Positions 16,851 through 30,515 of a stretch of 33,167 nucleotides of DNA are shown piece by piece. The notes beneath the pieces were generated by a model, which was given only the letters and a program-made list of their open reading frames with translations, had not been told where the DNA came from and searched no databases. Numbering within the stretch: the stretch's first letter is position 1; every line of letters starts with the position of its first letter. Source of the DNA: a virus; IMG/VR virus record IMGVR_UViG_3300032240_002076, positions 1 through 33,167 of that record. One strand, 5' to 3'. The position numbers and the translations under genes are program-made.

Positions 16851-16853
16851 GTA

Positions 16854-16953
16854 AAAATTAATAAATAGACCAAACAATTAAAAAAAAATCAGCATTTGGC
16901 GTTTGACTAAACTGCTAAACTCTGAAATAATATAAATGTGGAAAGTATCCACA
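16854..16953 (+). promoter_or_regulatory. Cassette 8 promoter element and 5' hairpin
   Basis: Block at 16854, TTGACT at 16903, -10 AATAAT at 16926 (the copy nearest consensus), hairpin TGTGGA-AAGTA-TCCACA (16937-16953). Confidence 0.88.
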
Positions 16954-16967
16954 GAAACAGAGGAAAA

Positions 16968-17234
16968 ATGTCTAATTGGAATATCACGGTCAGAGTAGAT
17001 TACAACTTTGATGTTGAGGCAGATACACAAGAAGAAGCCGAGAAAATCGCTTGGGACAACTATGCCAAACTTGGTGTAGATGTTCAGATTGTAGAAATCT
17101 GGACAGAGGAAGAAACCGAGGACGAGGACAAGGACGAGGACAACGAGCCAGACGAAAGTTGGTTTGACGGAGATGCTCTCGCTAGTGCTGGACACGGAAC
17201 AGACGAGGACTACGGGTATTACGGAGATGAATAA
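16968..17234 (+). CDS. Hypothetical very acidic protein, cassette 8 gene 1
   Basis: The 88-residue protein opens with a small strand-helix unit (NWNITVRVDYNFDVEADTQE as residues 3-22, then EEAEKIAWDNY) followed by an extreme Asp/Glu tail. The unit resembles short phage domains with a VEA...EEAE helix. ATG 16968 is chosen for GAGGAAAA upstream; the longer frame begins inside the 5' hairpin. It overlaps the next gene by eight bases. Confidence 0.68.
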   Translation: MSNWNITVRVDYNFDVEADTQEEAEKIAWDNYAKLGVDVQIVEIWTEEETEDEDKDEDNEPDESWFDGDALASAGHGTDEDYGYYGDE

Positions 17235-17457
17235 GCCTAATCACCCAGAAGGAGTGGAGGGGGCAACCCCTCTCCACTACCCTACGCCAGAGGAAATCGG
17301 AAAGTTCCACGCAGTTATGGAAGAACTTCGCAAACTAGGATTTGTAGTCCCTAATGTAATCAACTCAGATGAAGTCCCTCTCTACCAACTAACCTCAGAT
17401 GACCTCGCAGAACTACAAGAATATATTGAGGAAATCAAAAGGGATAATGATGAGTAG
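17227..17457 (+). CDS. Hypothetical protein, cassette 8 gene 2
   Basis: The 76-residue protein (MNKPNHPEGVEGATPLHYPT, then two acidic helices) starts inside the end of the preceding gene, with ACGGAG as its Shine-Dalgarno. Unknown. Confidence 0.65.
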   Translation: MNKPNHPEGVEGATPLHYPTPEEIGKFHAVMEELRKLGFVVPNVINSDEVPLYQLTSDDLAELQEYIEEIKRDNDE

Positions 17458-17563
17458 GCATAAATATAATCCTGACCTCAACCAAAAGGCTATACGATTA
17501 CTTAGCCGAGTAATCATTAGACTTTCCACGCTACAAGCGTTCCTAATCAGCAAATCCAAGTAA
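17447..17563 (+). CDS. Tiny basic protein, 37-38 residues, cassette 8 gene 3
   Basis: The frame begins at ATGATG overlapping the previous end and encodes a basic, helical peptide (NQKAIRLLSRVIIRLSTLQ), in contrast to the acidic proteins around it. AAAAGGGAT lies upstream. It ends directly at the terminator. Real coding is likely but not certain. Confidence 0.5.
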   Translation: MMSRHKYNPDLNQKAIRLLSRVIIRLSTLQAFLISKSK

Positions 17564-17597
17564 GTCAGACCCCACCAGAAATGGTGGGGTTTCTGGC
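17564..17597 (+). terminator. Terminator, cassette 8
   Basis: CCCCACCA-GAAA-TGGTGGGG with an outer GTCAGA/TCTGGC pairing. Confidence 0.85.
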
Positions 17598-17602
17598 AGC
17601 TA

Positions 17603-17703
17603 AAAATTAATAAATAAACCTAACAATTAGAAAAAAAGCTGGCTAGGCAAACTTGACTAAATTACCTATTTATGAAAAACTTAGAGTGTGGAAAGTATCC
17701 ACA
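17603..17703 (+). promoter_or_regulatory. Cassette 9 promoter element and 5' hairpin
   Basis: Block at 17603, TTGACT at 17653, -10 AAAACT at 17676, hairpin TGTGGA-AAGTA-TCCACA (17687-17703). Confidence 0.88.
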
Positions 17704-17718
17704 GAAACCGAGGAAAAA

Positions 17719-18033
17719 ATGACCGATTTCAGTAAAGTAGAAAAAGCCCTTGAAACAGCCGAGGGTATCGCTTGGGACACTTGCCACAAGATTTATGTCC
17801 TAATGGATAACTATCAGGTAGAACTTATGCGTAAGTATGAGTATGAAAAAATCAAAACTTATAGTGACGGTTTATCTCCCGAAGATATGCTGGACTTGGT
17901 AAAAGAGTGGTATGCCGATAGTTGCCAACTACGATTTGTTCAGTCAGTCAGAACAGTTCTTACAAATCCAAACTTGGGTTACGAAGACCTAATCGAGCAG
18001 TTTGACGAGATTGACGAAGACGGTATGTATTAG
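17719..18033 (+). CDS. Hypothetical acidic helical protein, cassette 9
   Basis: The 104-residue protein is mainly helical (VEKALETAEGIAWDTCHKIY, KYEYEKIKTYSDG, LVKEWYADSC) and ends in an acidic EIDEDGMY tail. ATG 17719 follows CGAGGAAAAA; the longer frame from 17653 begins at the -35 box. Unknown. Confidence 0.68.
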   Translation: MTDFSKVEKALETAEGIAWDTCHKIYVLMDNYQVELMRKYEYEKIKTYSDGLSPEDMLDLVKEWYADSCQLRFVQSVRTVLTNPNLGYEDLIEQFDEIDEDGMY

Positions 18034-18037
18034 ACCA

Positions 18038-18076
18038 AAGCCTCTCACCCAAAAGGGTGGGAGGTTTCTTCTTTTT
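18038..18076 (+). terminator. Terminator, cassette 9
   Basis: CCTCTCACCC-AAAA-GGGTGGGAGG, then TTTCTTCTTTTT. Confidence 0.88.
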
Positions 18077-18077
18077 C

Positions 18078-18178
18078 AAAATTAATAAATAGACCGAACA
18101 ATTAAAAAGAAAGCTCTACACGGCAACTTGACTAGACAATAAAACTATGAAAGACTTATCTTGTGGAAAGTATCCACA
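18078..18178 (+). promoter_or_regulatory. Cassette 10 promoter element and 5' hairpin
   Basis: Block at 18078, TTGACT at 18128, -10 AAGACT at 18151, hairpin TGTGGA-AAGTA-TCCACA (18162-18178). First copy with the full TATGAAAGACT form. Confidence 0.9.
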
Positions 18179-18198
18179 ATTTACAACTAGGAGTAAAT

Positions 18199-18585
18199 AT
18201 GTTATCTGAGTTTGATTTCGAGCAGATAAAACAAGCACTATGGCACGCTGAAAGAAACGCTAGTCCGTCAATGAAATCTAGGTGGGTAAGTGTTCTAAAT
18301 AGGTTCATAGATGAGTTCCAGCCTATATCTAATGTCTGCCAGTGTGAAGACCGACCTTGTTGTTCCTGTGATAAAGACTACTATCGCAACGACAACAACG
18401 AGGCACCTGATTACGAGGCTATCCGAGAGCGTAGTGAGGAAAGAGAACTACAATGGGAAATGCTAATGGATAGCCCTTGCTCAATCTGTAAGGAGAACTT
18501 TACAGACGAGGACAACGAAGATGATGTTGTTCAAGGTTTCCACGCTGACTGCGCGGCAGATGGCGACCACTACGGAGATATCTAA
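18199..18585 (+). CDS. Cys-rich acidic protein, cassette 10
   Basis: The 128-residue protein has an N-terminal helical region, a central CQCEDRPCCSC cluster (about 47-57) and a later CSICKENF plus a His/Cys pair (HADC). This suggests two metal sites. ACTAGGAG precedes ATG 18199. The longer frame starts inside the leader hairpin. Unknown role. Confidence 0.68.
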   Translation: MLSEFDFEQIKQALWHAERNASPSMKSRWVSVLNRFIDEFQPISNVCQCEDRPCCSCDKDYYRNDNNEAPDYEAIRERSEERELQWEMLMDSPCSICKENFTDEDNEDDVVQGFHADCAADGDHYGDI

Positions 18586-18590
18586 TCCCA

Positions 18591-18620
18591 ACCAGAGCCA
18601 CCCGAAAGGGTGGTTTCTGG
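18591..18620 (+). terminator. Terminator, cassette 10
   Basis: CCAGA and CCACCC pair with GGGTGG and TCTGG around GAAA. Confidence 0.82.
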
Positions 18621-18628
18621 CGTTGGTA

Positions 18629-18729
18629 AAAATTAATAAATAGACCAAACAATTAAAAAGAAGTCGCAGCTGCCCAACTTGACTGATGCAGTGAAGTGTG
18701 AAAAGCTGATGATGTGGAAAGTATCCACA
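18629..18729 (+). promoter_or_regulatory. Cassette 11 promoter element and 5' hairpin
   Basis: Block at 18629, TTGACT at 18679, -10 AAAGCT at 18702, hairpin TGTGGA-AAGTA-TCCACA (18713-18729). Confidence 0.88.
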
Positions 18730-18748
18730 CTTCCAACCTAGGAGAAAT

Positions 18749-19060
18749 ATGGAAAACTGGAAAACAATTACGGACAAATGGGAACTGCTAGAAAACGCTC
18801 CCGAGTTCGCTGAACATACGGCTGGCTTGATTCACTGGTCGCATAACTGGAACGCTGGAGATACTGCCAGCCCAATCATTCCGTTCCTTGCTTTGATTGG
18901 CTACTTTGATACGGTTCTTGGTATTGAAAAAGTAGAGGTCTCTCGCACAGGATTTCTTGAAATGTCTTACATTGCTGACGCTTTACAAGAATACTCAGAG
19001 CGACCTAACGATGTCTGGGACTTTGTTCACCGCTACTTTATCTTAGAAACTCAGGACTAA
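18749..19060 (+). CDS. Hypothetical protein, cassette 11
   Basis: The 103-residue protein contains HWSHNWNAGDTA and a hydrophobic segment PIIPFLALIGYFDTVLGIE that could be a buried helix. CTAGGAG lies upstream. No family recognised. Confidence 0.66.
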   Translation: MENWKTITDKWELLENAPEFAEHTAGLIHWSHNWNAGDTASPIIPFLALIGYFDTVLGIEKVEVSRTGFLEMSYIADALQEYSERPNDVWDFVHRYFILETQD

Positions 19061-19065
19061 CCTCT

Positions 19066-19102
19066 GCCTCTCTGCTAAAAAGCAGGGAGGCTTTGGCTTT
19101 TG
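19066..19102 (+). terminator. Terminator, cassette 11
   Basis: GCCTCTCTGCT-AAAA-AGCAGGGAGGC followed by TTTGGCTTTT. Confidence 0.88.
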
Positions 19103-19104
19103 TA

Positions 19105-19201
19105 AAAATTAATAAATAGACCAGACAATTAGAAAGAGATCCATAACGCCACACTTGACTATTTATTGTATATATGTAAGACTTGTAGTGCCAGCAACTA
19201 C
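19105..19201 (+). promoter_or_regulatory. Cassette 12 promoter element and 5' hairpin
   Basis: Block at 19105, TTGACT at 19155, -10 AAGACT at 19178, short hairpin GTAGT-GCCAGCA-ACTAC (19185-19201). Confidence 0.87.
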
Positions 19202-19214
19202 CTAGGAGGAAAAA

Positions 19215-19886
19215 ATGGCAATCAGGAAAAACAACCACTTATTACCTGCTGATGTGTGGATAGTAGCCCACAACCTAAACAGCCACATAAACGCAGTGAA
19301 AGAACAGAACAAAATAAAAAGGGTAAAAAGAGGACACCACGGCTCTTGGCTAGAATATAAAGTAGCACTTGAGGAGTGGCAACTAAAAGTCCAGCGTGCT
19401 AAAAAAGCCTTAGAAGTTAGACACGCTTATATAAAAATGCTACGAAACTTAGGCTGGACTTTGGAGAGCATAGGTGAGGCTTTCGGAATAACTAGAGAAC
19501 GGACTAGGCAGTTAGCAAGTAAAGACTGCCCGATAGTTATCTCAAGTTTAGATATACCTCTACCAATGCCACCACAAAAGCCAGAAAAGTTTGGTCGTGT
19601 AATCCGAGTGCCAGACGAGGAAACTATCGCAAGGCTTAGGGAACTACATAGCAAAGCAAGGCTAGTTAGAAGTAGCGACCCAAGGTATCGCAAAGAGGCA
19701 GAGGAATTTACATATCTTCTAAACCACTTGGTCAATGTTGAGAAATATACAGCATACCAAATAGCCAAGATATTAGGGGTAACTCACGCTGCACTAGAAC
19801 ACCGATTAGTTAGATATGGCTACAAAACAACTAACGGAACTTCCCAAGCATTAGTTCCTCTAAAGCACAGAATACCTTTACACTAG
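19215..19886 (+). CDS. Sigma-region-4-like DNA-binding protein, cassette 12
   Basis: The 223-residue protein has a helix-turn-helix at about 77-101, LGWTLESIGEAFGITRERTR followed by QL, which is very close to the -35-binding region 4.2 of sigma-70 factors. A second helix-turn-helix-like segment lies near 178-201 (AYQIAKILGVTHAALEHRL). The N-terminus is basic. There is no recognisable sigma region 2, so it is not a complete sigma factor. It could bind the TTGACT boxes or the conserved block and act as a co-regulator of the array; that is inference. AGGAGG gives a strong translation start. Confidence 0.75.
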   Translation: MAIRKNNHLLPADVWIVAHNLNSHINAVKEQNKIKRVKRGHHGSWLEYKVALEEWQLKVQRAKKALEVRHAYIKMLRNLGWTLESIGEAFGITRERTRQLASKDCPIVISSLDIPLPMPPQKPEKFGRVIRVPDEETIARLRELHSKARLVRSSDPRYRKEAEEFTYLLNHLVNVEKYTAYQIAKILGVTHAALEHRLVRYGYKTTNGTSQALVPLKHRIPLH

Positions 19887-19894
19887 GCAACGCT

Positions 19895-19920
19895 AGACCT
19901 ACCCGAAAGGGTAGGTTCTG
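19895..19920 (+). terminator. Terminator, cassette 12
   Basis: AGACCTACCC-GAAA-GGGTAGGTTCT. No T-run before the next block. Confidence 0.8.
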
Positions 19921-19927
19921 GCAATTC

Positions 19928-20052
19928 AAAATTAATAAATAAACCGAACAATTAAAAAGAAAACCGCGGCTAGTGATTTGACTAATGTAGCGAAGTGTGA
20001 AAGACTAGAACCGAGAGGGTAAGTCTGCGGGAACAGGTTCGCTTACCCTCTC
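19928..20052 (+). promoter_or_regulatory. Cassette 13 promoter element and 5' hairpin
   Basis: Block at 19928, TTGACT at 19978, -10 AAGACT at 20001, hairpin GAGAGGGTAAG (20013) with CTTACCCTCTC (20042-20052). The loop holds TCTGCGGGAACAG, shared with cassette 18. Confidence 0.9.
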
Positions 20053-20088
20053 AACTTATCCACCCACTAAACAACTAGGAGTAAAAAA

Positions 20089-20583
20089 ATGGGATTAGAT
20101 ATGTATTTAGAGGCTCGCAAGTATTTCTCTAAGTTTGATTATTCATCAAACAGCGAAGAACTATTGCCAGACTACAAAGAACTAACAAAGTTCTTTCCAA
20201 CAGGTTCAGATGAACTTGGCTCACACGCAGGAGCGCACTTAGAAATCACCGTTGGCTATTGGCGAAAGGCTAATGCTATCCACGCTTGGTTTGTCCGAGA
20301 GTGTGCTAACGGAGTAGATGAGTGCCAGCCTATCCGAGTAATAAACGGAAAGTTGCGAGAACTAAAGGTAGTCATTGAGTTCCTAATGGACATCAAAGAC
20401 TTACCGAGTGTCAAGGAGGAAATTGAAAAACTATTGCCTCCAACAGCAGGGTTCTTCTTCGGTGATACTGAAATAAATGAGTATTATTGGGCTGACCTAC
20501 AACACACCTTAGATATTCTCAACAGGGCTATTGACCTAGAAGAAAATCAAGACTGCGACATCACTTACCAAGCCAGTTGGTAA
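20089..20583 (+). CDS. MGLDMYL-family phage protein, cassette 13
   Basis: The 164-residue protein opens MGLDMYLEARKYFSKFDY, the hallmark of a family of hypothetical proteins found in many phages and sometimes mis-annotated as a kinase. It continues with EITVGYWRKANAIHAWFV and a late FGDTEINEYYWADLQHT segment, both usual for the family. Its function is not established. ACTAGGAG precedes the start. Confidence 0.82.
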   Translation: MGLDMYLEARKYFSKFDYSSNSEELLPDYKELTKFFPTGSDELGSHAGAHLEITVGYWRKANAIHAWFVRECANGVDECQPIRVINGKLRELKVVIEFLMDIKDLPSVKEEIEKLLPPTAGFFFGDTEINEYYWADLQHTLDILNRAIDLEENQDCDITYQASW

Positions 20584-20590
20584 TCCCCAC

Positions 20591-20627
20591 CAGCAGCCTA
20601 CCCGAAAGGGTAGGTTGTTGGCGTTTT
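20591..20627 (+). terminator. Terminator, cassette 13
   Basis: CAGCAGCCTACCC-GAAA-GGGTAGGTTGTTG, then GCGTTTTT. Confidence 0.87.
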
Positions 20628-20630
20628 TAA

Positions 20631-20725
20631 AAAATTAATAAATAAACCAAACAATTAAAAGAAGAGCTGGTGTGCGACTATTTGACTAGCACGGCAAAGT
20701 GTGAAAGACTAGGTGTGTAAGCACC
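20631..20725 (+). promoter_or_regulatory. Cassette 14 promoter element and 5' hairpin
   Basis: Block at 20631, TTGACT at 20682, -10 AAGACT at 20705, small hairpin GGTG-TGTAAG-CACC (20712-20725). Confidence 0.87.
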
Positions 20726-20746
20726 ACTAATCAACTAGGAGATAAA

Positions 20747-21034
20747 GTGAAATACACACCACAGCAATACGCAGACGCAGTAATCAAGGAAATCTACAAA
20801 GTAGAGAACCTTTACAACCTAGCACCTGCCCTCGCCTATGTAGCAACCAAACTTGGTATTTGGGCAAGTAAAAAAGCCGAAATCGCAATTTGGGCAACTG
20901 ACGGAACCGAAGAACACGCAGCAAGAAATTACGCTGAGTGGGAAATCGCAGACACAAAGTTCAAAGCATACCTAATCGCTTTCAACACCTTACAAGCAAG
21001 ACTTCAAGAGTTTGTAATGGAAGTGGAACTATGA
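20747..21034 (+). CDS. Hypothetical helical protein, cassette 14 gene 1
   Basis: The 95-residue protein starts at GTG after CTAGGAG. It is almost wholly helical and Ala-rich (APALAYVATKLGIWASKKAE). The stop overlaps the next start (ATGA). The plan resembles small phage proteins with paired helices, but no family is recognised. Confidence 0.68.
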   Translation: MKYTPQQYADAVIKEIYKVENLYNLAPALAYVATKLGIWASKKAEIAIWATDGTEEHAARNYAEWEIADTKFKAYLIAFNTLQARLQEFVMEVEL

Positions 21035-21162
21035 GTGTTTGGTGTCCAGAGTGCGATGAAGAAACCACACAAGCCACGCTAGACAAGTATGGTATGTGCT
21101 ACAACTGCGAAAAGCAGATGTGTCCCGAGTGTGCCAGAGTGTTCTGCGACCACGACCAGTAA
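21031..21162 (+). CDS. Tiny zinc-finger protein, 43 residues, cassette 14 gene 2
   Basis: CPEC, CYNC, CPEC and a final C-x-H give seven Cys and a His in 43 residues, ample for two zinc sites. It is coupled to the upstream gene by an ATGA overlap. Unknown role. Confidence 0.72.
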   Translation: MSVWCPECDEETTQATLDKYGMCYNCEKQMCPECARVFCDHDQ

Positions 21163-21168
21163 AATCTG

Positions 21169-21204
21169 CCAGCCTATCCGAAAGGGTAGGCTGGTTTGGT
21201 TTTT
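21169..21204 (+). terminator. Terminator, cassette 14
   Basis: CCAGCCTATCC-GAAA-GGGTAGGCTGG, then TTTGGTTTTT. Confidence 0.88.
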
Positions 21205-21206
21205 GT

Positions 21207-21285
21207 AAAATTAATAAATAGACCAAACAATTAGAAAGAAAGCGCGACCCTCTGATTTGACTAATCACGGAAAGTGTGAAAGACT
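21207..21285 (+). promoter_or_regulatory. Cassette 15 promoter element
   Basis: Block at 21207, TTGACT at 21257, -10 AAGACT at 21280. TGATT and AATCA flank the -35 as an inverted repeat. A long structured leader follows. Confidence 0.88.
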
Positions 21286-21549
21286 AGTATCAACAAGGAA
21301 GCGACGGCTGACTTGGAGTGTGGCTGAACAACCTCAATCGTCAGATGGGGAGGTAAGGCAATGTCGGATACTAGCGTATCGTCTTAGCGGACAAACGGCA
21401 GGTGTGCTGAAAAGCGGGCTTAGAACCGAACTGACTTGGCACTAGTGGTAAAACGCAATCCACTCACTCACTATAAAACCCCACCTGAGTATGTGGGAAA
21501 GCACCAAAAATATAAACTGCTCACTCAAACAAACAACTAGGAGAAACAA
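21286..21549 (+). ncRNA. Long structured leader RNA or small RNA, ~260 nt
   Basis: CTAGTATC (about 21285-21292) pairs with GATACTAG (about 21367-21374), enclosing CGAC/GTCG and CTGAC/GTCAG pairings. Further downstream GTGG and CCAC enclose an A-rich loop near 21444-21462, and CCCAC pairs with GTGGG near 21481-21500. No start codon with a Shine-Dalgarno lies inside. It is far longer than the usual 20-60 nt leaders of the array. It could be an attenuating leader for the gene at 21550 or an independent RNA; I match it to no known family. Confidence 0.55.
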
Positions 21550-21753
21550 ATGGAAGACCCAAAATACCCAGAAGTCAAAGTTCAGTTAGTAGGACTTGAC
21601 GGAAACGCTTGGTCTATTATGGCAAGAGTTTCATCAGCACTAAAAAAGGCAGGAGTTTCGGAGGACGAGGTTTCTGAATACCTGACCGAAAGCCAGTCGG
21701 GAGATTACGACAACTTGCTACGCACTGCTATCAAGTGGGTTAGCGTAGATTAG
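21550..21753 (+). CDS. Small conserved phage protein, cassette 15
   Basis: The 67-residue protein reads VKVQLVGLDGNAWSIMARVS then ALKKAGVSEDEV and SGDYDNLLRTAIKWV. This pattern (a strand with L.G.DGNA, a helix, then SGDYD.LL..A..WV) is one I know from many short hypothetical proteins of phages and mobile elements; its function is not established. CTAGGAG lies upstream. Confidence 0.75.
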   Translation: MEDPKYPEVKVQLVGLDGNAWSIMARVSSALKKAGVSEDEVSEYLTESQSGDYDNLLRTAIKWVSVD

Positions 21754-21757
21754 CAAA

Positions 21758-21785
21758 AGACCCTAGCCGAGAGGCTAGGGTTTCT
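21758..21785 (+). terminator. Terminator, cassette 15
   Basis: AGACCCTAGCC-GAGA-GGCTAGGGTTTCT. Confidence 0.85.
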
Positions 21786-21792
21786 GCGTTTC

Positions 21793-21893
21793 AAAATTAA
21801 TAAATAGACCGAACAATTAAAAAGAGACCGGCTACCGACTATTTGACATAGTTCGGTAAGTGTGAAAGACTTAGAGTGTGGAAAGTATCCACA
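21793..21893 (+). promoter_or_regulatory. Cassette 16 promoter element and 5' hairpin
   Basis: Block at 21793, TTGACA at 21843, -10 AAGACT at 21866, hairpin TGTGGA-AAGTA-TCCACA (21877-21893). ACCGACTAT and ATAGTTCGGT form a dyad across the -35. Confidence 0.9.
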
Positions 21894-21918
21894 AGCACCA
21901 CCCAACTAGGAGAAACAA

Positions 21919-22218
21919 ATGGAACTACTACCCGAAAGCGAGAAAGCAAAACTCGCTAAGTGGAACGAAACCGAAGGTATGGACCTCGGTAAAGTTATGG
22001 CAACTGTCAAGTTCTTCTGCCCTTGGTCCAACTGGACTTGGTATGCGGCAGAGTTTGACGGAGAAGACTTGTTCTTTGGTCTTGTTGATGGCTTAGAAAA
22101 AGAACTTGGCTATTTCTCGCTGAAAGAGCTAAGCGACCTTACAGGTCCTATGGGTCTCAAAATTGAACGCGACCTTTATTGGACACCAAAGGACTTAGGA
22201 ACACTTATCCACTCCTAA
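21919..22218 (+). CDS. DUF2958 family protein, cassette 16
   Basis: The 99-residue protein matches my memory of DUF2958: MELLPESEKAKL at the start, then VKFFCPWSNWTWYAAEFDG, FFGLVDGLEKELGYFSLKEL and IERDLYWTPK. DUF2958 proteins occur on plasmids, integrative elements and phages and have no assigned activity. The whole family length is present. CTAGGAG precedes the start. Confidence 0.85.
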   Translation: MELLPESEKAKLAKWNETEGMDLGKVMATVKFFCPWSNWTWYAAEFDGEDLFFGLVDGLEKELGYFSLKELSDLTGPMGLKIERDLYWTPKDLGTLIHS

Positions 22219-22271
22219 CCAGACTGCCCTACCTAGATAATCCCAGTTATCTAGGTAGGGTTCTGGCTTTT
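22219..22271 (+). terminator. Terminator, cassette 16
   Basis: CCAGA and CCCTACCTAGATAA pair with TTATCTAGGTAGGG and TCTGG; TTTT follows. Confidence 0.88.
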
Positions 22272-22274
22272 GTA

Positions 22275-22375
22275 AAAATTAATAAATAGACCAAACAATT
22301 AAAAAGAGATCCGCGTGGTGCTATTTGACTTATGCGGTGAAGTGTGAAAGACTGATAGCGTAGAAAGCCCTCTAC
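22275..22375 (+). promoter_or_regulatory. Cassette 17 promoter element and 5' hairpin
   Basis: Block at 22275, TTGACT at 22325, -10 AAGACT at 22348, hairpin GTAGA-AAGCCC-TCTAC (22360-22375). Nearly identical to cassette 19 from block to hairpin. The leader to 22429 continues another 54 nt. Confidence 0.88.
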
Positions 22376-22429
22376 AACAAGACGCAGACTTGCTAAACTG
22401 CCCCTTAGTTCCACCGAGAGGAGGACAAA

Positions 22430-22690
22430 ATGGTAATGTTCAAGTTCATTAGCGACCCTGGACACGGCTGGTTAGAGGTTAGTCTGAAAGACTTCCCTTT
22501 CGCCCAGCGTTCAGCAACAGGGTGCGGCTACAAAAATGGCGACTTTATTTATCTGGAAGAAGATGTTGAAGCAAACGACTTTCTGGTAGAACTTCGCCAA
22601 CGCGGTATTGCCTTCGACATCACAGAAGAAATTCTGAATGACGAATGGGAAGGTCGCGACTACGAACGCAACCGAGTGTTGAAGAAGTAG
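22430..22690 (+). CDS. Conserved hypothetical phage protein, cassette 17
   Basis: The 86-residue protein begins MVMFKFISDPGHGWLEVSL and contains GDFIYLEEDVEANDFL. I recall the same pattern (F..D.GHGWLEV ... YLEED.DA..F) in widely distributed short phage proteins with no assigned function. GAGAGGAGG is a strong ribosome site. The C-terminus is basic. Confidence 0.75.
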   Translation: MVMFKFISDPGHGWLEVSLKDFPFAQRSATGCGYKNGDFIYLEEDVEANDFLVELRQRGIAFDITEEILNDEWEGRDYERNRVLKK

Positions 22691-22697
22691 TCCCTAG

Positions 22698-22728
22698 CCT
22701 AGTCTGTCCGAAAGGACAGGCTAGGTTT
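22698..22728 (+). terminator. Terminator, cassette 17
   Basis: CCTAGTCTGTCC-GAAA-GGACAGGCTAGG, then TTT. Confidence 0.86.
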
Positions 22729-22737
22729 CCGCATTTC

Positions 22738-22862
22738 AAAATTAATAAATAGACCTAACAATTAGAAAGAGAGCTCCACGAAACAGTTTGACTTATGCGG
22801 TGAAGTATGAAAGACTAACATCGGGAGAGCAAGTCTGCGGGAACAGTTCTACTTGCTCTCCC
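22738..22862 (+). promoter_or_regulatory. Cassette 18 promoter element and 5' hairpin
   Basis: Block at 22738, TTGACT at 22788, -10 AAGACT at 22811, hairpin GGGAGAGCAAGT (22823) with ACTTGCTCTCCC (22851-22862). The loop shares CTGCGGGAACAG with cassette 13 while the stem differs. Confidence 0.9.
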
Positions 22863-22892
22863 ACCTATTCACCCGCAAACCTAGGAGTAAAA

Positions 22893-23021
22893 ATGGAACT
22901 AGATGATGTAACAGCAGCAAAAATCAAGCGTATCTACGACATGTATTACGCTGATGAAATCACTGTTGATGACGCAATACACAAGTTGGAACTAATCATC
23001 AACGGAGTAGAAGATGAGTGA
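22893..23021 (+). CDS. Tiny helical protein, 42 residues, cassette 18 gene 1
   Basis: MELDDVTAAKIKRIYDMYYA onward, two acidic helices. CTAGGAG precedes ATG 22893; the longer frame starts at the -35 box. The end overlaps the next gene by eight bases. Confidence 0.65.
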   Translation: MELDDVTAAKIKRIYDMYYADEITVDDAIHKLELIINGVEDE

Positions 23022-23265
23022 AATCACCAAATCAAAAAGTGAGCCATACTTCAACGACCTTCTAAGTAACCACATTGGACACAAAATGGAAGTTGTTGAG
23101 TATCTATGCGGTATCTGCGGTAAGACCAGCGACTATCTATTGAGATGTATTCAAGAGCAGATAGACGACACTTGCTACAATGACCCAGTAGGTATCGCTA
23201 GAGAGTTGACTCCAGAGTGCGGTTGCTCTCTCGCTGACCTGAAAGTGGCTTGGATGCCATCCTAA
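23014..23265 (+). CDS. Small zinc-binding-type protein, cassette 18 gene 2
   Basis: The 83-residue protein has CGIC near 32-35 and later C, C and CGC positions, consistent with one zinc site. It is coupled to the tiny gene upstream. Unknown role. Confidence 0.65.
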   Translation: MSEITKSKSEPYFNDLLSNHIGHKMEVVEYLCGICGKTSDYLLRCIQEQIDDTCYNDPVGIARELTPECGCSLADLKVAWMPS

Positions 23266-23272
23266 CCAATAC

Positions 23273-23312
23273 TAGCCCTAGCCCCTGAAAAGGGGTTAGG
23301 GTTAGCTCTTTT
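23273..23312 (+). terminator. Terminator, cassette 18
   Basis: TAGCCCTAGCCCCT pairs with AGGGGTTAGGGTTAGCT around GAAA-type loop; CTTTT follows. Confidence 0.87.
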
Positions 23313-23413
23313 AAAATTAATAAATAGACCGAACAATTAAAAAGAGATCCGCGTGATGCTATTTGACTTATGCGGTGAAGTATGAAAGACTGATAGCGTA
23401 GAGAACTCTCTAC
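23313..23413 (+). promoter_or_regulatory. Cassette 19 promoter element and 5' hairpin
   Basis: Block at 23313, TTGACT at 23363, -10 AAGACT at 23386, hairpin GTAGAG-AACT-CTCTAC (23398-23413). Compared with cassette 17 both arms of the hairpin gained a pair. Confidence 0.9.
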
Positions 23414-23438
23414 ACTAAACCAACCCGAAAGGAACATA

Positions 23439-23912
23439 ATGTCTATACTAGATATTATTTCTGCTCTACCGCTTGTTTATCTTGCGGTTGCTACAATACC
23501 GCTTGTAGTCATTGACTACAAACTACACCGCTTACCGAACAAAATTGTTCTACCATTCGCAGCGCTAGCGTTCATTACCGCCATTGTTGTAAATGTTGCC
23601 ACTCAAAGTTGGATAAACCTACTGCTCGCAGTTGGCTTGCCGTTTGTATGGTTCATCATTGGACTTGTTCTAAACTACCTTGATGTAGTTGGAATGGGTG
23701 ATGTGAAGTTCGTTACTGCCCTACTGCTCGCTGTTGGTGTGTATTCACCGATTATTGCTCTGCTAATCATTCCACTATCAGTTCTATTCTCAATAATCTC
23801 AATTGTTTATATGGCTATGCGGAAAGCACCAATAGGAACAAGTGTGCCACTTGGTCCTTGGCTAATACTCTCAACTTGGCTAGTAGTCGCAGTATTCAGT
23901 TCTGCTTGGTAA
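23439..23912 (+). CDS. Type A24 prepilin peptidase-like membrane protein, cassette 19
   Basis: The 157-residue protein is hydrophobic with about five or six membrane segments. Two aspartates sit where the catalytic pair of A24 (TadV/CpaA/PilD-type) peptidases lies: Asp26 in VVIDYKLHRLPN and Asp88 in VGMGDVKF, the GxGD motif. These membrane enzymes cut the leader of type IV or Tad pilins; the short length fits TadV/CpaA, which lacks the methylase domain. Both key residues are intact, so activity is likely. It is unusual in a phage. The start has CGAAAGGA instead of the CTAGGAG of its neighbours, hinting at separate origin. Confidence 0.85.
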   Translation: MSILDIISALPLVYLAVATIPLVVIDYKLHRLPNKIVLPFAALAFITAIVVNVATQSWINLLLAVGLPFVWFIIGLVLNYLDVVGMGDVKFVTALLLAVGVYSPIIALLIIPLSVLFSIISIVYMAMRKAPIGTSVPLGPWLILSTWLVVAVFSSAW

Positions 23913-23917
23913 GCACT

Positions 23918-23962
23918 GCCAGCCCTGCCACCTGAAAAGGTGAGCAGGGTTGGTGGCTTTTC
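23918..23962 (+). terminator. Terminator, cassette 19
   Basis: CCAGCCCTGC and CCT pair with AGG and GCAGGGTTGG around a GAAA-type loop; CTTTT follows. Confidence 0.85.
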
Positions 23963-23963
23963 A

Positions 23964-24064
23964 AAAATTAATAAATAGACCTAACAATTAAAAAGAGATC
24001 CGCCACGGTGCGTTTGACTACTATGGCTATCTATGGCAGACTAATAGTGTAAGCACCCGCTTAC
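23964..24064 (+). promoter_or_regulatory. Cassette 20 promoter element and 5' hairpin
   Basis: Block at 23964, TTGACT at 24014, -10 CAGACT at 24037, hairpin GTAAGC-ACCC-GCTTAC (24049-24064). Confidence 0.88.
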
Positions 24065-24089
24065 GCTAAATCTAAACTAGGAGTAAATT

Positions 24090-24536
24090 ATGGCAGAGCC
24101 CATTGTTTATGAGTTGTCTAGTGATTGCCGTTGCACTGAAACGGACGATGACGGCAACGAACTGAAAGACGATAACGGTTATCCCCTTGCGGCTGACTAT
24201 TGCCACGGTTGTTGGGAAGACGACCTAGGCAATACAGAAAGCGAAATAATCAAGCCTTGGCTAAAGGCTAATGGTATCACCGAAGATGATTACATTGCGG
24301 TAAGCGTTGAAAGAGCGACTTGGCAAAATGTAAGTGGAAACGGAGTTGGTAAGGCTGACCTCAAGAGTATCTTGAAGATGCTAACCTTCAACGGTGATTG
24401 GACACTTGAATTCACCTATGACGGTGATAAGACCCTAATCGCTAAGCGTTGGAGCCACGATGAGCCTATGGGAACATCGCCCTTCTTGTTCAGAAAAGCG
24501 ACTGAACACGACATAGAGAATTGGGAACATCGCTAG
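24090..24536 (+). CDS. Hypothetical acidic protein, cassette 20
   Basis: The 148-residue protein has CRC near 14 and CHGC near 38-41, which may hold a metal, then an alpha/beta region (DDYIAVSVERATWQNVSGNG, WTLEFTYDGD). CTAGGAG lies upstream. No family recognised. Confidence 0.68.
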   Translation: MAEPIVYELSSDCRCTETDDDGNELKDDNGYPLAADYCHGCWEDDLGNTESEIIKPWLKANGITEDDYIAVSVERATWQNVSGNGVGKADLKSILKMLTFNGDWTLEFTYDGDKTLIAKRWSHDEPMGTSPFLFRKATEHDIENWEHR

Positions 24537-24543
24537 ACCAAAC

Positions 24544-24580
24544 AGCGACAGCCCTGCCGAAAGGCAGGGTTGTTCGCAGC
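24544..24580 (+). terminator. Terminator, cassette 20
   Basis: GCGACAGCCCTGCC pairs with GGCAGGGTTGTTCGC around GAAA. Confidence 0.84.
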
Positions 24581-24584
24581 TTGA

Positions 24585-24724
24585 AAAATTAATAAATAGA
24601 CCGGACAATTAAAAAGAGAGCTCCGTCAGCCCGTTTGACTAAGTGCCGTATCTATGAAAGACTAGACCCACAACTAAATAGCGTGAGTGGTTAGGCTCAG
24701 TTGCGAAGCCTTGCCTAACCACTC
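24585..24724 (+). promoter_or_regulatory. Cassette 21 promoter element and 5' hairpin
   Basis: Block at 24585, TTGACT at 24635, -10 AAGACT at 24658, hairpin GAGTGGTTAGGC (24685) with GCCTAACCACTC (24713-24724), a perfect 12-bp stem. Confidence 0.9.
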
Positions 24725-24757
24725 AGCCCCCAACCTATCCACTAATCTAGGAGCAAA

Positions 24758-24988
24758 ATGAGTAAAACTCAAATCGCTACGGCTTGGACTTGGTTTGTCG
24801 CAAGATACACCAAACTAGGCTACAAATCACTCAACCAGTTCGCTAACGCAACAGGATTACAGAAATCCAGCCTTAGCCGATACTTCCACCTACAGCGTGA
24901 AATCCCATCAGGTATGATGGCGACACTCTGCCGAGAACTCAAGACCACTCCAAATGAGTTGATGAAAATTATCGGTGCTTGGAAGTAA
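24758..24988 (+). CDS. XRE/Cro-type helix-turn-helix protein, cassette 21
   Basis: The 76-residue protein is one DNA-binding domain: SLNQFANATGLQKSSLSRYF covers the turn and recognition helix (about 25-44), followed by IPSGMMATLCRELKTTPNEL, the usual closing helices. It probably regulates phage or host promoters; it may act within the array. CTAGGAG precedes the start. Confidence 0.82.
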   Translation: MSKTQIATAWTWFVARYTKLGYKSLNQFANATGLQKSSLSRYFHLQREIPSGMMATLCRELKTTPNELMKIIGAWK

Positions 24989-25000
24989 TCACCACCGAGA

Positions 25001-25033
25001 GCCTAGCCCGAAAGGGTTAGGCTTTTGGTTTTT
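25001..25033 (+). terminator. Terminator, cassette 21
   Basis: GCCTAGCCC-GAAA-GGGTTAGGC, then TTTTGGTTTTT. Confidence 0.88.
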
Positions 25034-25034
25034 C

Positions 25035-25113
25035 AAAATTAATAAATAGACCGAACAGATAAAGAGAGATCCGCGGCTTAGTGCTTGACTAAGTGCCGAT
25101 AAAGTGAAATACT
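25035..25113 (+). promoter_or_regulatory. Cassette 22 promoter element
   Basis: Block at 25035, TTGACT at 25085, -10 AATACT at 25108. CGGCTTAGT and ACTAAGTGCCG form a dyad across the -35 (one 2-base bulge). Confidence 0.87.
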
Positions 25114-25242
25114 TGGAGTAGGGTGAAATCACCGTAGAAGTGCTACGGAGCGAGCGAAAGCACAGCCTTAGCGAAGTGAGCAGGAAAGACCTTGCTAGCA
25201 GTTGATTACTGCTCACTTTGCGACTACCAACCTAGGAGAAAA
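25114..25242 (+). ncRNA. Structured leader RNA, ~130 nt
   Basis: Successive stems are GGTGAAATCACC, CGTAG/CTACG, GTGCT...AGCAC, and a long GCGAAGTGAGCAG with CTGCTCACTTTGC near 25174-25222. The ribosome site CTAGGAG lies just after the last stem. It may be a regulatory leader for the gene at 25243. Confidence 0.55.
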
Positions 25243-25449
25243 ATGGAACTATGTAGTAAGTGCCAAGAAGAAGGCAAAGACACAGAGGCTAAATACGCAG
25301 TTTGGGCAATAGCGTATTTTGACCCTACCCTAAAAAAGTTTGTAGGTTGTTGGAATGACGGAACTAAAGTTTGTAAGCCTTGCCTAGACTTTACTCTAAC
25401 TATCCCAACAATTAAAGTTCAGTATCAAATACTAGAAGAAGTCGCCTAG
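25243..25449 (+). CDS. Small zinc-binding-type protein, cassette 22
   Basis: The 68-residue protein has CSKC (4-7) and CKPC near 46-49, a four-Cys ribbon around a beta hairpin (AVWAIAYFDPTLKKFVGCW). ATG 25243 follows CTAGGAG. The longer frame lies in the structured leader. Unknown. Confidence 0.68.
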   Translation: MELCSKCQEEGKDTEAKYAVWAIAYFDPTLKKFVGCWNDGTKVCKPCLDFTLTIPTIKVQYQILEEVA

Positions 25450-25455
25450 CACTTA

Positions 25456-25487
25456 GCCTAGCCCTGCCGAAAGGTAGGGTTCAGGCG
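25456..25487 (+). terminator. Terminator, cassette 22
   Basis: GCCTAGCCCTGCC pairs with GGTAGGGTTCAGGC around GAAA. Confidence 0.83.
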
Positions 25488-25492
25488 CGGCT

Positions 25493-25594
25493 AAAATTAA
25501 TAAATAGACCGAACAGTTAGAGGGAAATCCGTGGCTCGGTGTTTGACTTATGCCGTGAAGTATGAAAGACTTATCTCGGGTAGCGTATCTACCC
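25493..25594 (+). promoter_or_regulatory. Cassette 23 promoter element and 5' hairpin
   Basis: Block at 25493 (variant GAACAGTTAGAGGGAA), TTGACT at 25543, -10 AAGACT at 25566, hairpin GGGTAG-CGTAT-CTACCC (25578-25594). Confidence 0.88.
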
Positions 25595-25630
25595 AAAGCA
25601 TCACCCAAACAACTAACCATAAGGAGTGCC

Positions 25631-25978
25631 GTGAATACTATTCGCGCCTTAGTTGTCCACGCTGACAACACTACCGAGAGAATAGAAGTCGCTGAGACTG
25701 ATTTCTCTACTGCCCTACACGATGCCATTGGTGGCTGGTTTACCCACGTGTCCATAAACGAAACCCTAGATTTCTGGGTTGATGATGAAGGACTACTAAA
25801 AAGCCTGCCACTAAACAGAGTGGCTACTCGGTTCTACTCACTACTGGGAGCAACTAGCCCTATTGTTGGCACTGCCGTATTCACGGGTGGTGGAGACGGA
25901 CACGGTGGAACTATGTCTCTCGATGAGACTAGCATCGAAGCCTTAGAGTTCGCAGCCAAAATGGCTAGCCAGTTCTAA
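25631..25978 (+). CDS. DUF3846-like protein, cassette 23
   Basis: The 115-residue protein starts at GTG after AAGGAG. It reads RALVVHADNTTERIEV, then LHDAIGGWF, WVDDEGLLKSLPLNRVATRF and PIVGTAVFTG. This order (a short strand, a GG turn, DEeG...LPlN..A, IVG...) is the DUF3846 pattern common in actinobacterial phages and plasmids. Function is not established. Confidence 0.8.
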   Translation: MNTIRALVVHADNTTERIEVAETDFSTALHDAIGGWFTHVSINETLDFWVDDEGLLKSLPLNRVATRFYSLLGATSPIVGTAVFTGGGDGHGGTMSLDETSIEALEFAAKMASQF

Positions 25979-25990
25979 TAACCCTTAGCC

Positions 25991-26020
25991 CTAGCCCCTA
26001 GCCGAAAGGTTAGGGGTTAG
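25991..26020 (+). terminator. Terminator, cassette 23
   Basis: CTAGCCCCTAGCC-GAAA-GGTTAGGGGTTAG. Confidence 0.82.
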
Positions 26021-26032
26021 GTGTTGCGCCGT

Positions 26033-26110
26033 AAAATTAATAAATAGACCGAACAGTTAGAGGGAAGCCTGGCGAGCCTGTTTGACTAAGTGCCGATAAT
26101 GTGAAAGACT
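26033..26110 (+). promoter_or_regulatory. Cassette 24 promoter element
   Basis: Block at 26033 (same GAACAGTTAGAGGGAA variant as cassette 23), TTGACT at 26082, -10 AAGACT at 26105. Confidence 0.87.
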
Positions 26111-26232
26111 GAACCCGTCAGGGAAAACCCTGATGCGTTGCTCTGTCTTGTTGTGTCTAACTAAGTTAGAACGGGTAAGAGTGCTGGGTGCCAGTGCCGC
26201 AGAGCAACGCTAACTACAACATAGGAGCAGAA
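26111..26232 (+). ncRNA. Structured leader RNA with possible pseudoknot, ~120 nt
   Basis: TCAGGG-AAAA-CCCTGA (26118-26133) is followed by an 11-bp stem GCGTTGCTCTG (26135) with CAGAGCAACGC (26200-26210). Inside is TCTAAC/TTAGA. ACCCGT (26113-26118) can pair with ACGGGT (26171-26176) in the enclosed loop, which would make a pseudoknot. ATAGGAG and the start follow. Confidence 0.58.
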
Positions 26233-26451
26233 ATGCGCTTTATAGTAAGAGCCTTATTTGGGCTAATGTTCGGTGGCTTCGCCACTCTAAGTATGGAAAT
26301 CAGCAGACGCTACATTGTAGCGTGGAGCTTCACCGATAGAAGTGATGACCTAGTTAGTTATGCTCGCTGGGAAACTATCAGTTGGGCGTTGATGTCCGTT
26401 GCAGTAGTTATCGTAATCTGGGCTTGGGTATCAACCAGAAACGACAAGTAG
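26233..26451 (+). CDS. Small two-pass membrane protein, cassette 24
   Basis: The 72-residue protein has one hydrophobic segment near 4-20 and a second near 47-66 (WALMSVAVVIVIWAWV), joined by a polar aromatic loop. The protein at 27307 has the same plan and similar second segment. ATG 26233 is set by ATAGGAG. It could be a superinfection-exclusion or envelope protein; no family recognised. Confidence 0.7.
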   Translation: MRFIVRALFGLMFGGFATLSMEISRRYIVAWSFTDRSDDLVSYARWETISWALMSVAVVIVIWAWVSTRNDK

Positions 26452-26452
26452 C

Positions 26453-26498
26453 ACCGAGCCAGCCCTGCCTAGCAATAGGCAGGGTTAGGCAGCTCGGT
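26453..26498 (+). terminator. Terminator, cassette 24 (duplicated at 27126)
   Basis: Inner stem CCCTGCCT-AGCAAT-AGGCAGGG with outer CCGAGC/GCTCGG. The same structure ends the gene at 26899. Confidence 0.85.
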
Positions 26499-26598
26499 AA
26501 AATTAATAGATAGACCAGACAATTAGAAAGAGATCCGTTCAGGGTCATTTGACTATGTCTGCCGTTTATGAAAGACTAGCATTACGGGTATGCCCGTA
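26499..26598 (+). promoter_or_regulatory. Cassette 25 promoter element and 5' hairpin
   Basis: Block at 26499 (variant AATTAATAGATAGACC), TTGACT at 26549, -10 AAGACT at 26572, hairpin TACGGG-TATG-CCCGTA (26583-26598). Confidence 0.88.
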
Positions 26599-26615
26599 GA
26601 AAGAAGGTGATTAGT

Positions 26616-26822
26616 ATGACTAACCTAATCTCATTACCAAAATCAGGACTATTCGGGTTTGGCGAGTTCATGGTTGATAAAGTATTCCAGTGTTCATACT
26701 GCTCCAACAACGCAACTAAGTATGTTTGGAGCAAGGACACCGATGGAGCATTCAGCGACATTGAGAGTTTCACTTGCGACAACCACGATGAACACTTCGC
26801 TAAACTCAATGCCAGAGCATAG
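26616..26822 (+). CDS. Small zinc-finger-type protein, cassette 25 gene 1
   Basis: The 68-residue protein has CSYC near 26-29 and a later C and H pair (TCDNHDEH), consistent with one Cys/His zinc site. AAGAAGG lies eight bases before ATG 26616. Unknown. Confidence 0.66.
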   Translation: MTNLISLPKSGLFGFGEFMVDKVFQCSYCSNNATKYVWSKDTDGAFSDIESFTCDNHDEHFAKLNARA

Positions 26823-26830
26823 CACCACTC

Positions 26831-26860
26831 GCCTAGCCCTGCCGAAAGGCAGGGTTAGGC
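26831..26860 (+). terminator. Terminator-like hairpin inside cassette 25
   Basis: GCCTAGCCCTGCC-GAAA-GGCAGGGTTAGGC. It is not followed by a block or promoter, unlike the others. Confidence 0.8.
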
Positions 26861-26898
26861 AACCCCTAACCAGCAGCACCGATAACAAGGAGAACCAA

Positions 26899-27123
26899 TT
26901 GAACCAGCCGAGAAAGTCAGTCATAGTTGTTCGCAGACTACTAGCCAGCGTAGTTATTACGCCCCTAGTTGCCCTTGCCTACTTGCTAATCTATGCCTTG
27001 CTAGTCGCATACGGAGCAACACCGACCAACACCCCAACAGGAATACTACTAGACGCCCTAATGCTAGGAGTATTGGCAAGCCTAATGTTTGCCCTTGCTC
27101 CGTTAGCGTGGAAACGCAAGTAA
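26899..27123 (+). CDS. Small two-pass membrane protein without own promoter, cassette 25 gene 2
   Basis: The frame starts at TTG 26899 after AAGGAG and encodes 74 residues with two hydrophobic segments (ASVVITPLVALAYLLIYALL; LLDALMLGVLASLMFALAPL). Positive residues flank the first segment. No block, -35 or -10 precedes it, so it depends on read-through of the hairpin at 26831, or the promoter was lost. Confidence 0.65.
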   Translation: MNQPRKSVIVVRRLLASVVITPLVALAYLLIYALLVAYGATPTNTPTGILLDALMLGVLASLMFALAPLAWKRK

Positions 27124-27125
27124 GC

Positions 27126-27171
27126 ACCGAGCCAGCCCTGCCTAGCAATAGGCAGGGTTAGGCAGCTCGGT
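27126..27171 (+). terminator. Terminator, duplicate of 26453
   Basis: CCGAGC, CCCTGCCT, AGGCAGGG and GCTCGG in the same order and spacing as at 26453-26498. Confidence 0.85.
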
Positions 27172-27273
27172 AAAATTAATAGATAGACCTGACAATTAGA
27201 AAGAGAGCTCGGTCTGCCTATTTGACTAACTTTACTATTTATGAAAGAATAGTATCGGGTAGCGTATCTACCC
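27172..27273 (+). promoter_or_regulatory. Cassette 26 promoter element and 5' hairpin
   Basis: Block at 27172 (AATAGATAGACC variant), TTGACT at 27222, -10 AAGAAT at 27245, hairpin GGGTAG-CGTAT-CTACCC (27257-27273) identical to cassette 23. Confidence 0.88.
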
Positions 27274-27306
27274 AAAGCACCACCTAACTACTACTAAGGA
27301 ATTCAA

Positions 27307-27525
27307 ATGAACTCTTTATTCTTTACCCGTGTTGCCTTGTTCATCTCACTTAGCGTTTCATCAGGTATCTCTATTACCCTTGCTAAGACTAACTACGAGC
27401 AATGGTTCTACTACGACAGCACCAGAGCCCTTGATGCTTATGTTTCTTGGACAGCCATAACTGCCGTATTACTAACCCTAACTCTCGCTAGTTTCGCTTG
27501 GATTTGGAAAGCGTTTAGAGACTAG
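27307..27525 (+). CDS. Small two-pass membrane protein, cassette 26
   Basis: The 72-residue protein has hydrophobic segments near 5-25 and 49-68, the latter ending LASFAWIWKAF. The polar loop with paired aromatics (YEQWFYYDS) and the plan match the protein at 26233, so they are probably paralogues. AAGGA precedes the start. Confidence 0.7.
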   Translation: MNSLFFTRVALFISLSVSSGISITLAKTNYEQWFYYDSTRALDAYVSWTAITAVLLTLTLASFAWIWKAFRD

Positions 27526-27530
27526 CCAGC

Positions 27531-27577
27531 ACCGAGCCAGCCCTAGCCGAAAGGCTAGGGTTATGGCGTTGCTCGGT
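27531..27577 (+). terminator. Terminator, cassette 26
   Basis: CCCTAGCC-GAAA-GGCTAGGG inside an outer CCGAGC/GCTCGG stem. Confidence 0.86.
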
Positions 27578-27670
27578 AAAATTAATAGATAGACCAGACA
27601 ATTAGAAAGAGAGCTCGGTCTGCCTATTTGACTATGCTCGGTATCTATGAAAGAATAGTTGCGTAAGCAA
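27578..27670 (+). promoter_or_regulatory. Cassette 27 promoter element and 5' hairpin
   Basis: Block at 27578, TTGACT at 27628, -10 AAGAAT at 27651, short hairpin TTGC-GTAA-GCAA (27659-27670). Block and upstream part match cassette 26 closely. Confidence 0.86.
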
Positions 27671-27693
27671 TACACCTACTAGGAGATGATAAA

Positions 27694-27981
27694 ATGCTAC
27701 ACCCACAATACAGGCAAATAAGCCCAAACAAAAGGCTTAGAGATTACCGAAGAAACGAAACAGGAAATCTAGTTGTAGAAATCTTTGGCAACTTAGATGG
27801 TTGGTTACACGGAGTTACTTGTTTTGGAAGCGACACTTGCCAGAACGAAATGTTTTATCAGGTAAAGTATGGCATCTCGGTCAAGAACCACGACAAGTAT
27901 TATCCAAACTACTTATGCGAAACTTGCGTAGAAGTAGCGATACAAAATCAAGAACTACCTTACAAGGAGTTTTGGTTTTAG
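27694..27981 (+). CDS. Hypothetical Cys-containing protein, cassette 27
   Basis: The 95-residue protein is basic at the N-terminus (NKRLRDYRRNE) and contains C-x4-C (CFGSDTC) near 45-51 and CETC near 78-81, a likely zinc site. CTAGGAG lies upstream. It is the last intact cassette gene. Unknown. Confidence 0.68.
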   Translation: MLHPQYRQISPNKRLRDYRRNETGNLVVEIFGNLDGWLHGVTCFGSDTCQNEMFYQVKYGISVKNHDKYYPNYLCETCVEVAIQNQELPYKEFWF

Positions 27982-27997
27982 CCACTAGCACCAAAAC

Positions 27998-28032
27998 GCC
28001 TAGCCCTACCTAGCGATAGGTAGGGTTTAGGC
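27998..28032 (+). terminator. Terminator, cassette 27
   Basis: GCCTAGCCCTACCT pairs with AGGTAGGGTTTAGGC around AGCGAT. Confidence 0.85.
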
Positions 28033-28041
28033 TTGCGCGGC

Positions 28042-28123
28042 AAAATTAATAAAAGCTTCGCTCGCTTCGCTCGCTTCGCAAATAGACCACGCTTCGCTCG
28101 CTTCGCTCGCTTGCTAACAATTA
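28042..28123 (+). repeat. 28th cassette block, split by two GCTTCGCTC-rich inserts
   Basis: The pieces AAAATTAATAAA (28042-28053), TAGACCA (28083-28089) and AACAATTA (28116-28123) join to give exactly the block consensus. Between them lie inserts of about 29 and 26 bases made of the repeating CGCTTCGCT word. No -35/-10 pair at the normal distance follows, so the promoter is lost. The non-coding stretch 28033-28308 continues with more GCTTCGCTC copies near 28162, 28213 and 28238. Confidence 0.85.
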
Positions 28124-28683: not shown

Positions 28684-29262
28684 ATGAGAAAGTTCGCAAC
28701 ATTACTAGTAGCAACAGTCTTGACTGTTGCTGGATGCTCGGCTTCTGCAGCCATTGCATCTAAAAATCAAGTAGCGAAAACAGTAGCAACACCGGTTTTG
28801 GTAAAAACAAAACCTCTAACTACAACACAGTTAAAGTTTATGGCTAGTCCAGGGGCTTCAAAAGAAGTTCGTAACTATGCCAAAATGACACTGCTAGTTA
28901 GGTACCTGAAGTCTCGCGTAGGAAGAACATCTTATGTCTTCTCAGGCGATACAACCAGGGGATGGGACTGCTCCGGAATGGTTCGCTGGACTTATAAACA
29001 GCTCGGTATAATCCTTCCTCACTCTGCTAACAAACAAGGACATCTTGGTAGTCGAGTATCTAACCCTAACGTTGGAGATATCGTTGTATTTGCATACAAT
29101 GGATCTACCAACTTCTATCACTCAGCAATCTATATCGGAAATAACAAAGTAATCAATGCTAACTTTGGATCCGGAACAACTATAGTAGAACCCCTATCTA
29201 ACTATAGAAATAGTCAGATTAGATTCGTACGGGTAATAAGGCAGGCAGTATCTCCACAATAG
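28684..29262 (+). CDS. NlpC/P60 cell-wall hydrolase with lipoprotein signal
   Basis: The 192-residue protein begins with a lipoprotein signal (hydrophobic 4-16, lipobox TVAGC, Cys18), implying export and anchoring in the host membrane. An NlpC/P60 domain occupies about 68-187: the nucleophile is in GWDCSGMV (Cys96) and the His in FYHSAIYIG (His146). Such enzymes cut peptide bonds in peptidoglycan. A membrane-anchored form is unusual for a phage endolysin, which normally acts only after holin action, so it may modify or protect the host wall, or block later infection. A strong terminator follows. Confidence 0.87.
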   Translation: MRKFATLLVATVLTVAGCSASAAIASKNQVAKTVATPVLVKTKPLTTTQLKFMASPGASKEVRNYAKMTLLVRYLKSRVGRTSYVFSGDTTRGWDCSGMVRWTYKQLGIILPHSANKQGHLGSRVSNPNVGDIVVFAYNGSTNFYHSAIYIGNNKVINANFGSGTTIVEPLSNYRNSQIRFVRVIRQAVSPQ

Positions 29263-30407: not shown

Positions 30408-30500
30408 CAAGCAAAGCTTGATTATTCAAAAGGCTTTCTGATGAAGTTGAACTGCATCTCGAGGCTGTACAATAGATACACAAGGCTTATATATCACATG

Positions 30501-30514: not shown

Positions 30515-30515
30515 G

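Follow-up and report, generated by a model that had tools for sequence, protein, structure and literature searches.

A TadV-like prepilin peptidase gene in large actinophage-type viruses and its possible bearing on host pili

Introduction

What use could a phage make of a prepilin peptidase, and whose prepilins would such an enzyme cut? Peptidase_A24-type enzymes are in themselves a well-known family, and the phage devices against host pili of which we know are small inhibitors of pilus motors. If the reading developed below is true, a phage-carried leader peptidase would be a different route into pilus biogenesis, and one taken by freshwater viruses that are uncultured and have no known receptor. 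Among cellular enzymes, TadV is described as a shortened form of prepilin peptidase with Flp pilins as its substrates (PMC3244431). We found no direct report of a phage prepilin peptidase in the open-access literature and, as far as the searches reach, a phage-only branch of these enzymes without pilus genes is undescribed. Here we analyse such a gene in a 33,167-base stretch of viral DNA, referred to throughout as the window.

Results and discussion

The gene occupies positions 23439-23912 (+) of the window and runs from an ATG start to a TAA stop, encoding 157 amino acids that lie mostly in membrane helices. The start codon is backed by GAAAGGA five bases upstream and by an identical start in relatives, and the antisense strand of the ORF is full of stops. 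The Pfam profile PF01478 (Peptidase_A24) spans residues 15-116 (E 7.7e-10; score 39.6 bits, cut-off 26.5), and a six-frame search of the window recovered the same match independently. Sequence comparison with the PDB, PHROGs and NCBIfam gave no match. Asp26 lies within VIDYKLHRLPNK and Asp88 within VGMGDVK; by homology the two are the catalytic pair. The initial annotation had proposed a phage-encoded prepilin peptidase with both catalytic aspartates intact, Asp26 and Asp88 in GMGD. The translation confirms the residues, and the proposal is supported by the family match, the catalytic pair, the predicted fold, the conservation and the phage surroundings of the gene, in line with dN/dS and the tree.

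With the family alignment as input, AlphaFold2 gave a model with a mean pLDDT of 90.2 and a pTM of 0.83. Its best match among solved structures is the archaeal preflagellin peptidase FlaK (3S0X), with a Foldseek probability of 0.99 but an E-value of 0.2. VIA aligned 148 residues to FlaK at Z 11.5 and rmsd 3.8, with the next unrelated chain at 7.3, although a Z below 13 for a helical bundle calls for care. FlaK, an archaeal enzyme, is 16% identical to the phage protein and larger, its chain having 186 residues against 157. Presenilin chains, which are also GxGD proteases, stand lower among the matches. In BFVD, two short viral models (138 and 141 aa) match at probability 1.00 with E-values of only 0.02-0.04, so further viral members may exist.

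Among known systems, the phage protein resembles the TadV/CpaA enzymes of Tad (Flp) pili, which are about 150-180 aa long and consist of the peptidase domain only, with PF01478, two catalytic aspartates and GxGD. In contrast to these, it is phage-encoded, has no surrounding tad operon and forms its own branch relative to the sampled actinobacterial peptidases. The bifunctional PilD/ComC peptidases share the peptidase half and its catalytic motifs, but the phage protein begins straight at the peptidase domain and has no N-terminal cysteine-rich methyltransferase half. The best-scoring cellular homologue, at 34% identity, is a stand-alone prepilin peptidase of Arthrobacter sp. H14, which differs in being chromosomal and 179 aa long, in grouping with the cellular sequences in the tree and in having GMGYGD instead of GMGD. 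In thaumarchaeal integrative-conjugative elements, which are mobile elements too, a prepilin peptidase lies beside pilins and FlaI/PilT ATPases (PMC6563490), whereas the phage gene stands alone.

Relatives of the peptidase are encoded at seven IMG/VR loci by single-sequence search (41-91% identity) and at 42 loci by alignment-based search (24-91% identity). Members are about 152-163 aa long, one with a longer open start (L045); each of the 27 in the alignment is recognised by PF01478 with E<=0.01. In the family alignment Asp26 is at least 90% conserved and GMGD with Asp88 is invariant, an invariance that is partly selected because the second search pattern included GMGD. By the NG86 method, dN is 0.05 and dS 0.18 against the closest relative (dN/dS about 0.27), and dN is less than half of dS in all pairs. 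The peptidase is thus retained under purifying selection. The ORF is not a chance one: further virus contigs encode relatives 41-91% identical to it, these keep both aspartates, and synonymous changes predominate.

In the tree, 23 phage rows fall on one side of a branch with support 100/100, against 32 actinobacterial peptidases, the cellular rows being only the best matches from about 300 Actinomycetota genomes. The phage peptidases are not nested among the cellular sequences, which argues against a recently host-derived auxiliary gene. A single old acquisition fits one phage branch better than repeated capture, although denser cellular sampling could change this picture. Among 49 loci around related terminases, 13 carry the peptidase on the covered flank and some others carry it farther off. 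Three near relatives, 102-135 kb in size, do not carry the gene; the family profile found no peptidase in a 135-kb record, a 102-kb record or phage DSL-LC01, whereas it detects G011, G013 and G436. It was likewise silent in MaAM05, A3Wally, GodonK and Mimi while positive in related records. Given this patchiness among close relatives, the peptidase is not essential to the phage type.

The expectation that phage examples would be few holds for named phages, in that tblastn of the peptidase against 50,697 phage records gave no match, but not for metagenomic viruses, with their 42 loci. When bifunctional and Arthrobacter peptidases were used as tblastn queries instead, the phage records yielded mainly two kinds of match, some to the N-terminal half and others in DNA that looks host-like and is of doubtful origin, namely fragments from Listeria and Enterococcus and the wastewater record MaAM05, in which ispH and fliA are present; these candidates were rejected.

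The virus itself can be placed through its large terminase at 30441-31907. Among named phages, Actinomycetia phage DSL-LC01 has the closest terminase, at 77.7% identity, and large phages of Microbacterium and Gordonia (115-195 kb) come next. The window also encodes an SSB, an NlpC/P60 protein and a putative endolysin and, together with the terminase, these mark it as a piece of a larger actinophage-type genome. An Actinomycetia host is predicted for DSL-LC01, which has WhiB genes (PMC10611076), and we found a WhiB gene in one relative of the window. The hosts are probably freshwater actinobacteria.

The peptidase gene appears to have its own transcription signals. A predicted intrinsic terminator of the preceding gene lies at 23272-23312 (+; CTAGCCCTAGCCCC-TGAAAA-GGGGTTAGGGTTAG, then CTCTTTT), and the 45-nt stretch upstream of the peptidase cassette has a predicted fold of -28.6 kcal/mol. 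Next comes one copy of an intergenic promoter cassette at 23312-23414 (+), identified by repeat search and cassette scan. Within it, from consensus alone, we infer a putative promoter at 23363-23391 (+), with a -35 element TTGACT (23363-23368), a 17-base spacer ending in TGA and a -10-like AAGACT (23386-23391). A 5'-UTR hairpin, GTAGAG-AACT-CTCTAC, is predicted at 23398-23413 (+), and the GAAAGGA ribosome-binding site lies at 23427-23433 (+). Downstream, a hairpin followed by TTTT at 23918-23961 (+) is a second candidate intrinsic terminator, and the stretch between the gene and the next cassette has a predicted fold of -28.4 kcal/mol. With terminators on both flanks and a cassette of its own, the gene would form a single-gene transcription unit. 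About 27 copies of the cassette occur in the window (11819-28053), ahead of many small genes, and the TTGAC element is conserved in 27 copies.

The initial annotation had raised the option that the phage processes a pilin-like protein of its own. It finds no support: in related virus records, which may be fragments although several are >125 kb, Flp and TadE profiles had no match (seven records) and no T2SSE match exceeded the cut-off (15 other records), and no convincing conserved class III leader emerged from strict (five records) or loose (ten records) scans, the loose scan recovering the Arthrobacter Flp as a positive control. T2SSE matches in six records were short P-loop matches below the cut-off and were discarded. 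A scan with the PilFind motif (PMC3244431) gave no convincing substrate in related records either, and in these records the peptidase is not surrounded by the Flp/TadE pilins and TadA ATPase of a tad locus. Gene content was compared between eight peptidase-plus and three peptidase-minus phages. Of 71 families present in six or more of the eight, 67 are shared with one or more of the three; besides the peptidase, no family is present in all eight of the former and none of the latter.

On the host side, TadE pilins are common in Actinomycetota: they were found in 11 of 12 genomes tested, several only 1.0-1.3 Mb in size, a result for the likely host phylum as a whole. A homologous peptidase is present in 180 of 296 sampled genomes of the phylum. 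Pilins in the likely host phylum are a precondition for the superinfection block or the aid to release that the initial annotation had suggested, effects which the phage peptidase may or may not have. As no convincing substrate was found in the phages, the substrate is most likely the host's.

We therefore lean, cautiously, towards a TadV-like membrane aspartyl protease that acts on host Flp/TadE-type prepilins during infection; its activity, host prepilins as its substrate and a benefit through the pilus are what we infer. In this scheme the phage would make a small GxGD protease of the TadV/CpaA type from its own promoter, and the protein would insert into the host cell membrane with Asp26 and Asp88 at the cytoplasmic face. 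There it would cut the leaders of host prepilins and alter the pool of assembly-ready pilin and hence the pili, which may be a phage receptor or may be removed against superinfection. The effect could go either way, since extra peptidase could raise pilin supply or could disturb timing and deplete precursors. That added peptidase would block pili is not obvious, because the host should have a peptidase of its own.

Other readings account for parts of the evidence. The protein might have kept GxGD catalysis, as in signal peptide peptidase and presenilin, and been retargeted to other membrane proteins, either host surface or defence proteins or a phage protein without a class III leader. The phage-only branch with its long distance from cellular enzymes would suit such a shift, as would the many small phage membrane proteins encoded nearby and the lack of a pilin found in the phages; however, the pilin-peptidase motifs RLPNK and GMGDxKL remain typical and no phage membrane protein strictly co-occurs with the peptidase, and we judge retargeting unlikely. 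Still less probable in our view is that the phage encodes its own substrate, pilin-like or tail-associated, with an unrecognised leader that the peptidase matures. The function of most phage proteins is not known, and there are two-helix membrane proteins that many peptidase-plus phages encode but that the three peptidase-minus phages lack; one such family, at 26659-27123 of the window, occurs in six of eight versus none of three. Against this, no candidate family conserved across the phages came out of the leader scans, just 4 of 11 members among the holin-like matches show the motif, and the Flp and TadE profiles are silent.

One lineage leaves room for a role outside pilus maturation or for a mainly non-catalytic one, in which the protein would bind host prepilins and keep them sequestered, or would compete with the peptidase of the host, as a decoy or binding partner. 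In L042 (8001-8474) and likewise in L043 and L044, identical in the three contigs, Asn replaces Asp26 while GMGD and the reading frame are intact, which suggests that catalysis is dispensable in at least one phage line. Both aspartates are nevertheless kept in every other member found, and the long branch of L042 (1.58 in the tree) and its score below Pfam's cut-off are as expected of a decaying or diverging exception; we judge a mainly non-catalytic role very improbable. The idea that the gene is host DNA, brought in by an assembly error or carried along by chance, scarcely deserves credence: the family is common in bacteria and patchy in phages, but here phage cassettes lie on both flanks, 42 virus loci share related contexts, the phage members form one branch under purifying selection, and the relatives' contigs would need to be chimeras too.

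A wider proposal, which we put forward as speculation and would not expect to hold in full, is that a virus-specific GxGD protease branch, long resident in large freshwater actinophages, gives phages control over the maturation of host pili, or over some other membrane protein, as a means of dealing with superinfection or the receptor, with some members being dead decoys. The conserved branch makes the idea testable: the host phylum offers a small number of candidate substrates, which can be recognised, and the member without Asp26 is a natural control.

Other features of the window and its relatives

The repeated cassettes consist of a terminator hairpin, AAAATTAATAAATAGACC..AACAATTAAAAAGAGA, the promoter-like stretch TTGACT-17-(TGA)AAGACT and often a short 5'-UTR hairpin, the sequence of which varies while the stem is kept. 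Nearly all the small genes thus seem to be started and terminated individually. The NlpC/P60 cell-wall hydrolase at 28684-29262 (+) has a lipoprotein signal (LTVAGC) and occurs in nine of ten peptidase-bearing records; it is possibly a surface-acting exclusion or lysis factor. At 5665-8609 (+), an AAA_5 ATPase is followed by a VWA-domain protein, forming a MoxR/CobT-like pair that is conserved across these phages and also annotated in DSL-LC01, where the second member is named a cobalamin biosynthesis protein.

Three relatives have a tmRNA with the tag ANTSAYALAA adjoining a tRNA-Met (L054 8053-8349, L063 12147-12490 and L082 17801-18097). This tag is unlike those of the actinobacterial tmRNAs examined, and host assignment through tmRNA similarity was dropped, as the match is confined to the last 30-35 bases and the tags differ. 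In the window, a manA RNA motif (Rfam RF01745) lies at 21297-21474 (+) in the small-gene region, with a score of 62.2 bits (gathering score 55.2). Two sets of repeats were also seen: AAACTTTTAACGGAGGCTTNGTT occurs three times within 4409-4606, at spacings of 111 and 59 bases, and GGTCAGG-type direct repeats are densely packed at 32911-33157, at the contig end.
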